DNA of 33,389 nucleotides, taken from assembly GCA_012965315.1 (NCBI GenBank), contig DTSO01000050.1, positions 1 to 33,389 on the forward strand, read 5' to 3'. Within the stretch, counting starts at the first letter, position 1. Every line of letters starts with the position of its first letter. Positions 320-1,373 of the stretch are shown in pieces. This stretch comes from Phycisphaerales bacterium (GTDB lineage: Bacteria > Planctomycetota > Phycisphaerae > Phycisphaerales > SM1A02). The position numbers were made by a program, and so were the translations under genes. The notes beneath the pieces were generated by a model. That model made no database searches and was not told the DNA's origin. It saw only the letters and a list, made by a program, of their open reading frames with translations.

Positions 320-348
320 TTGCAAAATGGGGAAAGGTGGGGTACTGT
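320..348 (+). promoter_or_regulatory. Candidate sigma70-type promoter of mraZ
   Basis: TTGCAA (320-325) and TACTGT (343-348) are separated by exactly 17 bases. The match to consensus is partial: 4/6 for the -35 and 3/6 for the -10. What favours it is that two MraZ boxes lie in the spacer and the third overlaps the -10 end, so bound MraZ would block polymerase. This is inference from position. Confidence 0.35.
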
Positions 349-360
349 GGGGGCGATTGG
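328..360 (+). promoter_or_regulatory. MraZ operator: TGGGG boxes at 10-base period
   Basis: TGGGG occurs at 328-332, 338-342 and 348-352, each starting exactly 10 bases after the previous one. A decayed fourth copy (TGG) is at 358-360. Tandem TGGGN boxes with 10-base spacing ahead of mraZ are the established binding site of the ring-shaped MraZ repressor, with successive subunits each contacting one box. The array ends about 25 bases before the mraZ start codon and overlaps the candidate promoter, which is consistent with autorepression. Confidence 0.85.
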
Positions 361-384
361 TAATGAAGAACCCAAAAGTACACC

Positions 385-846
385 ATGTTAATTGTAGGCG
401 AAACAGCACGATCTATCGACGAAAAACAGCGAATCTCTATACCAAAAGAGATGCGGGAGTTTTTTGCAATGGAGAATGGCCCCAGTATTGTCTATGCAAC
501 ACCTGGAGCAAATGGCTCAATTTGGTTATATCCAAAAGCGGCGTTCGAATCCAGAGCGAACGTTATGGAAAACTCGCTACTTCCCAACGAAGACGAAATG
601 GAACTCGAGCAAATACTGTTCTCTCAAACGACTCGTCTCGAGATAGACAAGTCGGGCAGAATTCGGTTGCCCGAAGTCTTACTCTCCTTCGTTGGAATAG
701 AAGCGCAAGCAATACTTTTAGGAGTTCGGGACCATCTCGAAGTAGTCAACCCAAAAAATTGGGAAGTGCAGAAACGAGAAGGATTGCCAAAACTGAAAGA
801 AATAATGGCTCGAATCAGAAACAAAAAAGAGGGGAAACCTTGCTGA
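385..846 (+). CDS. mraZ: Transcriptional regulator MraZ
   Basis: This 153-residue protein has the family's two SpoVT/AbrB-like halves. The first carries SIDEKQRISIPKEMRE near residues 10-25, with Q where DEKGR is usual. The second carries EIDKSGRIRLPEV near residues 86-98, followed by the LLGVRDHLEVVNPKNWE segment that is diagnostic of MraZ. MraZ is a DNA-binding repressor that normally controls its own division and cell-wall (dcw) operon. Here the operator upstream is well preserved, but no rsmH, ftsL or ftsI follows. Instead a structured non-coding stretch and terminator follow. The start ATG at 385 gives the standard N-terminus (MLIVGE...); only a weak ribosome binding site (GAAGAA) is visible. 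Length is normal for the family. Confidence 0.93.
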   Translation: MLIVGETARSIDEKQRISIPKEMREFFAMENGPSIVYATPGANGSIWLYPKAAFESRANVMENSLLPNEDEMELEQILFSQTTRLEIDKSGRIRLPEVLLSFVGIEAQAILLGVRDHLEVVNPKNWEVQKREGLPKLKEIMARIRNKKEGKPC

Positions 847-869
847 TGGGTTCGAGGCAACACATTTTG

Positions 870-1149
870 ATTTCTAACGCTGAGCAAGGACGCTCGGCTC
901 GCAAGGGGGAGGGCGTCAGGGACGATGCAACCACCTTGCATGAAATATACGCAGTAAATACTGCACAAAGTGAGTCAAGGATGACTCGCAATCGAGAAAG
1001 TACCAGCACGGACGCACGGTACTAATCAACCCTGGTTCTCGACTCAAGACCGAGTCGAGAACTATTCCTCAAGTCGGTCGAGCGAAATGCTCGACTACCT
1101 TCCCTTTTGACCCTCGGCATGACCCACCACATGCCGCGGGTCATTTTTT
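870..1149 (+). ncRNA. Candidate CsrA-sequestering RNA (CsrB/RsmZ-like) or long structured mraZ 3' UTR
   Basis: No credible protein is encoded between the mraZ stop (846) and the terminator (1109-1149), but the plus strand folds into a series of hairpins. Four have a hexaloop closed by C-G and matching the CsrA target A-N-GGA-C/U. They are 879-898 (7-bp stem, loop AAGGAC), 913-928 (5-bp, loop AGGGAC), 970-989 (7-bp, loop AAGGAU) and 1006-1015, stacked on a 6-bp stem 999-1004/1018-1023 (loop ACGGAC). Known CsrB, CsrC and RsmY/Z RNAs present repeated GGA motifs in hairpin loops to titrate CsrA. The SELEX-defined optimum contains CARGGAUG, which the third hairpin matches exactly. Further stable hairpins without GGA are at 1033-1064 (13-bp stem, loop AAGACC) and 1077-1095. 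csrA lies next door, convergent. The 5' end is not defined: no convincing separate promoter was found, so it may be processed from the mraZ transcript. Confidence 0.6.
1109..1149 (+). terminator. Intrinsic terminator of the mraZ / candidate sRNA transcript
   Basis: GACCC (1109-1113) pairs with GGGTC (1138-1142), and GGCATG (1116-1121) pairs with CATGCC (1130-1135). One mismatch interrupts the stem, the loop has 8 bases, and six T residues follow at 1144-1149. There is no matching A-run on the left, so it acts on plus-strand transcripts rather than on csrA. It shows that a transcript runs through the non-coding stretch after mraZ. Confidence 0.85.
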
Positions 1150-1154
1150 ATGCA

Positions 1155-1373
1155 TTATTCGTTTGAAGCTGGGCGAATTTTACCAGCAATCGCAGGGCCA
1201 TTTTTGGTAATTTCTTCAGCAACCTCATGCCGATGAACCGGGACCTCTCTTGGGAAATCGAATGCAATTCGAACTCGGTCGCCTTTGATTGAGGCAATGC
1301 GAACAACTCCTAGTGGATTTGCTGGATCACCAATAACAACCTCTTCCCCTTCTCTTCTTGTAATTACGAGCAT
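1155..1373 (-). CDS. csrA: Carbon storage regulator CsrA
   Basis: This 72-residue protein begins MLVITRREGEEVVIGD, the canonical CsrA N-terminus. It carries the second RNA-contact region as FPREVPVHRHEV, with R48 equivalent to Arg44 of the E. coli protein. CsrA is a dimeric RNA-binding protein that binds GGA motifs in mRNA leaders and blocks or promotes translation. A short insertion (DPANPLG) lengthens the loop before the second strand, so the protein is slightly longer than the usual 61-70 residues. The start is supported by AGGAGG 8-9 bases upstream. Two GGA triplets in the leader, one inside the ribosome binding site hairpin, suggest autoregulation. No fliW, the protein antagonist of CsrA in many bacteria, is seen in this window. 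The gene is convergent with the candidate sponge RNA. Confidence 0.95.
   Translation of the reverse strand: MLVITRREGEEVVIGDPANPLGVVRIASIKGDRVRIAFDFPREVPVHRHEVAEEITKNGPAIAGKIRPASNE

Follow-up and report, generated by a model that had tools for sequence, protein, structure and literature searches.

The mraZ–csrA2 locus

The window, the whole stretch of DNA analysed here, comprises 33,389 nucleotides of Phycisphaerales bacterium (SM1A02; GCA_012965315.1, contig DTSO01000050.1, positions 1–33,389, forward strand). Its plus strand carries mraZ (385–846), encoding an MraZ transcription factor with two MraZ domains (Pfam PF02381, E = 2e-16), the one MraZ found in this genome. Upstream of the gene are MraZ-box-like repeats of the form TGGGG-N5-TGGGG-N5-TGGGG (320–352, plus strand; repeats at 328–332, 338–342 and 348–352), which probably mark the mraZ promoter, their promoter and operator roles being inferred. 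Directly behind mraZ, on the same strand, lies a candidate CsrA-sponge RNA of approximately 300 nucleotides (847–1149), either the mraZ 3′ untranslated region (3′UTR) or a product cut from it, defined by its fold, a covariance model and compensatory base pairs. It is followed by the convergent gene csrA2 (1155–1373, minus strand; PF02599, E = 7e-16), which encodes a second CsrA paralogue.

The original prediction held that no credible protein lies between the mraZ stop codon and a plus-strand terminator, and the relatives agree, as the stretch contains many indels there that are not multiples of three and is non-coding. An open frame of 232 codons (327–1025, plus strand), which overlaps mraZ in another frame and enters the RNA, is unlikely to be coding because of these indels.

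Architecture of the RNA

The RNA contains four hairpins, all on the plus strand, that present GGA in a C-G-closed hexaloop of the form C-ANGGA(C/U)-G, each where it had been predicted. Hairpin 1 (879–898) has the loop AAGGAC (886–891), with 96% of its cells paired in the genus alignment described below. Hairpin 2 (901–939), defined by fold and alignment, consists of an outer stem and an inner hairpin (913–928) with the loop AGGGAC (918–923). Hairpin 3 (970–989) has the loop AAGGAU (977–982) and double changes in 5 of 7 pairs, and hairpin 4 (999–1023) has the loop ACGGAC (1008–1013), a stem interrupted by a small internal loop, and 97% of cells paired. The folding program renders the loop of hairpin 3 as a tetraloop closed by A-U; the hexaloop is favoured because relatives have C and U equally often at the sixth loop position.

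Beyond these hairpins, a long perfect hairpin without GGA (1033–1064, plus strand), whose structure is kept across genera and in which 7 of 13 pairs show double changes, precedes the single-stranded segment UUCCUCAAG (1065–1073, plus strand), which is unchanged in all 11 genomes of the genus and of which UUCCU also appears in other genera. The predicted terminator is present at 1108–1149 (plus strand) and comprises a covarying stem (1108–1143), with the conserved loop CCCACCAC (1123–1130), and a U tail; CCCACC of this loop occurs in 30 of 55 family loci. CCCACCAC, like UUCCUCAAG, does not vary within the genus and is retained in part by other genera; the two could serve as seeds for base pairing or as a switch by which the RNA masks its own GGA loops.

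The region 847–1152 (plus strand, 306 nucleotides) folds with −127.2 kcal/mol, compared with −85.6 ± 4.8 kcal/mol in shuffled sequences (z = −8.64). The 8-mer CANGGANG occurs 11 times in the whole window, against a chance expectation of 12.6, and four of these occurrences are the four loops, on one strand and within 130 bases. Under a strict hairpin criterion (an uninterrupted stem of at least 4 bp), three of the four hairpins pass, the remaining one having an internal loop, and at least three such hexaloop hairpins arose in only 7 of 20,000 dinucleotide shuffles. Folding of the stretch and loop enrichment against shuffled sequence were among the checks proposed with the original prediction, whose observation is confirmed.

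Covariation within the genus

Conservation was assessed in an alignment of the whole element from 11 genomes of the genus; the genomes are metagenome-assembled, yet many independent assemblies agree. All four GGA loops (A-N-GGA) are invariant in 11 of 11 genomes, while the stems vary. Counted on the window’s own structure, 90.2% of alignment cells are paired and 35 of 73 pairs carry a double compensatory change, compared with a mean of 18.3 in shuffled controls (0 of 500 reaching 35) and 3–13 when the partner strand was slid. RNAalifold, run without a given structure, predicted 62 pairs, 31 of them with compensatory change. Free divergence of the stretch in related genomes, with no stem covariation and no retained GGA loops, had been named in advance as grounds for refutation; the comparison did not refute the prediction, and the loops reappear across dozens of genera.

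Distribution across the family, order and phylum

For 80 named GTDB loci, the analysis covered the strand antisense to csrA; it took in the region behind mraZ at these loci and at approximately 120 further places across the order, class and phylum. The 55 distinct csrA–mraZ loci of the family contain 161 hexaloop hairpins, usually two to five per element, compared with 11.9 expected from shuffled sequence and 11 on the opposite strand. The search for these hairpins itself required GGA; elsewhere in the motif, A occupies loop position 1 in 158 of the 161 and C or U loop position 6 in 142, and 156 are closed by C-G. Convergent genes often share structured terminators, and the region could on that general ground be a structured insulator or terminator between two such genes, with no role for CsrA. 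This reading is strongly disfavoured and carries next to no weight, since it leaves unexplained both the invariant A-N-GGA-N loops on covarying stems and the strand bias of 161 versus 11, and the element persists when csrA is not convergent.

Outside the family, order families f2, f3, f5 and f6 have fewer hexaloops (means of 1.3–2.0), and in order family f4, csrA2 is present with no such hairpins behind mraZ, which counts against a CsrA sponge. Elsewhere in the phylum, counts are close to background, single cases in family f30 excepted. A phylum-wide feature was rejected, as 56 representatives average 0.20 hexaloops behind mraZ and 0.02 on the opposite strand. In single genomes of f30, loci L170 and L198 carry two or three GGA hexaloop hairpins downstream of mraZ, most of them between mraZ and rsmH; these could be ancestral or an independent case.

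A covariance model, R1, was built from the genus alignment. It scores 318 bits against the window, which was among the sequences used for building it, and, at E values up to 1, gives hits in 27 of the 61 family genomes, with many genera outside the building set among them; the weakest of these hits may be due to chance. With R1, no second sponge copy was found in the window’s own genome, where the element is single-copy. Of the partial matches inspected in other genomes, L254 was read in detail, and it too follows an mraZ gene. Genome G024 has two copies of the element, L254 and L261, in one bin, at least L254 being behind mraZ; duplication and contamination were not distinguished, and this case is unresolved.

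Linkage to mraZ

The original prediction placed the sponge RNA next to csrA. The RNA does adjoin csrA in the window, but its linkage is to mraZ: hairpins lie behind mraZ on the same strand in 55 of 55 distinct family mraZ loci, with at least two in 53. The gene csrA is convergent in 47 of these loci and downstream and co-directional in 7, and in the remaining locus mraZ lies beyond csrA. Among the 80 loci (587 kb), csrA loci without a detected mraZ have no hairpin cluster, except for three RNA-carrying contigs, in which mraZ is missing because the contig ends within approximately 600 nucleotides of csrA; loci with mraZ have no cluster elsewhere in the sequence read. An RNA tied to csrA was therefore rejected, as the element follows mraZ wherever csrA sits, and the neighbourhood of csrA is frequent, not required. 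Where the gene neighbours were read in more distant planctomycetes, rsmH comes after mraZ, as is usual for the dcw cluster, which mraZ heads; by comparison of the window (385–846) with L163, L210, L228 and L238, the gene seems to have moved out of this context in the present order.

Transcription

In the closest cases, the first stem begins 12–22 nucleotides past the mraZ stop codon. The RNA is more likely to be a product of the mraZ 3′UTR than a free-standing csrA-linked gene, and the simplest model would be one transcript, comprising mraZ and the sponge, that starts at the mraZ promoter and ends at the terminator (1108–1149). Room for a promoter exists in many genera, where 80–170 nucleotides separate the mraZ stop codon from the first hairpin, so that a free-standing small RNA gene, with its own promoter in the mraZ 3′ end or just behind it, could yield a sponge independent of mraZ expression. 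Such a gene is unlikely, although it keeps some weight: in the window’s genus the gap is often only 12–40 nucleotides and variable, no −35/−10 elements are conserved between the mraZ stop codon and the hairpins in five clades, and a consensus scan found no sigma-70 promoter belonging to the RNA.

Upstream of mraZ, the three TGGGG repeats at ten-base spacing lie in one of the most conserved blocks of that region in the genus, and TGGG-N6-TGGG occurs there in 36 of 55 family loci and in none on the opposite strand. PMC8475190, citing Eraso et al. 2014, describes MraZ as an autorepressor acting on upstream MraZ boxes. The window meets the MraZ definition of an MraZ domain protein with a repeated-box operator upstream, the operator being recognized by sequence pattern only; the repeats at 328–352 are inferred to be probably this operator. 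Given these repeats and the probable autorepression of mraZ, sponge output would follow MraZ activity.

CsrA paralogues and FliW

The window’s own genome encodes two CsrA proteins, one directly behind fliW and the other being CsrA2 of the window; two paralogues per genome are common in the order. CsrA2 keeps R6/R7 and the HR segment of E. coli CsrA, positions that bind RNA in the CsrA family in general, and has a 4-residue insertion. It has a conserved tail of its own, and the fliW-linked CsrA in the same genome has a longer C-terminal tail. FliW was found in 27 of 27 order genomes checked.

CsrA2, encoded next door, would be the most likely partner of the RNA in this family. In the sister family f5, a single CsrA match was obtained in 8 of 9 genomes checked, of the FliW-linked type where compared. 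Some f5 genomes keep hexaloop clusters behind mraZ (G040 and G335 have three hexaloops each), which indicates that the RNA does not depend on CsrA2; there it would act on the single, FliW-linked-type CsrA.

Relation to known CsrA-binding RNAs

CsrA-titrating RNAs have been described mainly from Gammaproteobacteria. The candidate meets three features of such sponges: multiple GGA motifs exposed in the hairpin loops of a single short RNA, the high-affinity ANGGAN hexaloop (here closed by C-G) and an intrinsic terminator at the 3′ end. CsrB/CsrC and RsmX/Y/Z share all three, and titration of CsrA/RsmA is presumed to be common to them and the mraZ-linked RNA. They differ in being free intergenic genes, whereas the candidate is attached to mraZ in a planctomycete host. 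Its four sites are also few beside the 22 GGA motifs of E. coli CsrB. The ANGGAN hexaloop is known from RsmE structures, and CsrA hairpins selected by SELEX mostly have six-base loops (PMC7652899). Stems of four or fewer pairs are common among the SELEX ligands (PMC7652899), however, and some stems here, at 7–12 bp, are longer.

CsrB-type RNAs are driven by BarA-UvrY, whereas the hosts of the candidate RNA carry FliW; in a genome survey, the two were anti-correlated and almost mutually exclusive, and FliW was proposed as a possible control of CsrA in planctomycetes, among others (PMC4682653). The Campylobacter jejuni flaA mRNA decoy (PMC4894983) resembles the candidate in placing CsrA sites on a protein-coding transcript in a FliW-bearing organism, but the flaA transcript is itself the main CsrA target, whereas the sites of the candidate sit on several near-perfect hairpins in a 3′ region that is devoted to them and closed by a terminator. 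RsmA-binding small RNAs derived from 3′UTRs, predicted in Vibrio fischeri (PMC5568370), are likewise GGA-loop sponges; they come from another phylum and a one-species prediction, whereas the candidate is backed by covariation and by dozens of genera.

The TwoAYGGAY RNA motif (Weinberg 2010, PMC2864571), reported from the human gut, Gammaproteobacteria and Clostridiales, has by its name repeated AYGGAY loops like those of the candidate; it was not among the matches of the Rfam scans. A known Rfam family was rejected, as there was no match at gathering score and the scan of the window gave only a tRNA. In an E-value scan of seven loci, the best Csr-type match was RsmW, at 32 bits against a cut-off of 52. 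A search of open-access literature turned up no description of a Csr sponge RNA in planctomycetes; subscription papers and preprints lay outside its scope.

A putative CsrA sponge in the mraZ transcript

The reading judged probable is that the 3′ part of the mraZ transcript, with its hexaloops and its own terminator, titrates CsrA. The sponge interpretation put forward in the original prediction is supported by covariation, invariant loops and recurrence. The RNA would be made with mraZ and present four high-affinity C-[ANGGAN]-G hexaloops to CsrA, which would be titrated away from mRNAs when mraZ is expressed. The sequence, structure and covariation, the identity of the loops, the mraZ linkage and the presence of FliW and CsrA paralogues, from which this reading starts, are observed. 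Transcription as one unit, CsrA binding, titration and control by MraZ are inferred, with no transcript or binding data.

The main uncertainty is between titration and local control. A 3′UTR array could act on the mraZ mRNA only, with CsrA governing its stability, decay or termination and no meaningful titration taking place; this would fit an array that accompanies mraZ in all loci read and lacks a conserved promoter of its own. Local control is nevertheless considered quite improbable: such control is usually exerted at the ribosome-binding site, and that of mraZ has none of the CsrA sites nearby; the RNA has an elaborate 3′ module and terminator of its own; and several near-perfect consensus sites side by side across genera are the pattern of a titrator. 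Alternatively, the RNA might act by base pairing, its segments UUCCUC, CUUCCC and CCCACCAC pairing with ribosome-binding sites and CsrA serving as a helper that is not titrated. Although the genus conserves these C/U-rich segments, and other genera do so in part, many family loci lack them, and no part is retained as widely as the GGA hairpins, which makes such a mode of action very unlikely.

Titration of CsrA by the mraZ 3′ region would work like that by the CsrB/RsmZ RNAs, yet in a different context and host. The broader proposal, that an autoregulated mraZ transcript doubles as a CsrA sponge and couples the MraZ circuit to global post-transcriptional control, besides restraint by FliW, remains tentative, the balance falling slightly short of even. 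If it is true, two CsrA antagonists, one an RNA and the other a protein (FliW), would be present in the same cell. Whether FliW and small RNAs act jointly on CsrA in any species is still to be determined (PMC7652899), and a conserved sponge candidate in FliW-bearing planctomycetes makes this question directly testable. The covariance model provides a starting point for a new RNA family, and the attachment to mraZ hints at an unexpected connection between the control of cell division and the Csr system.
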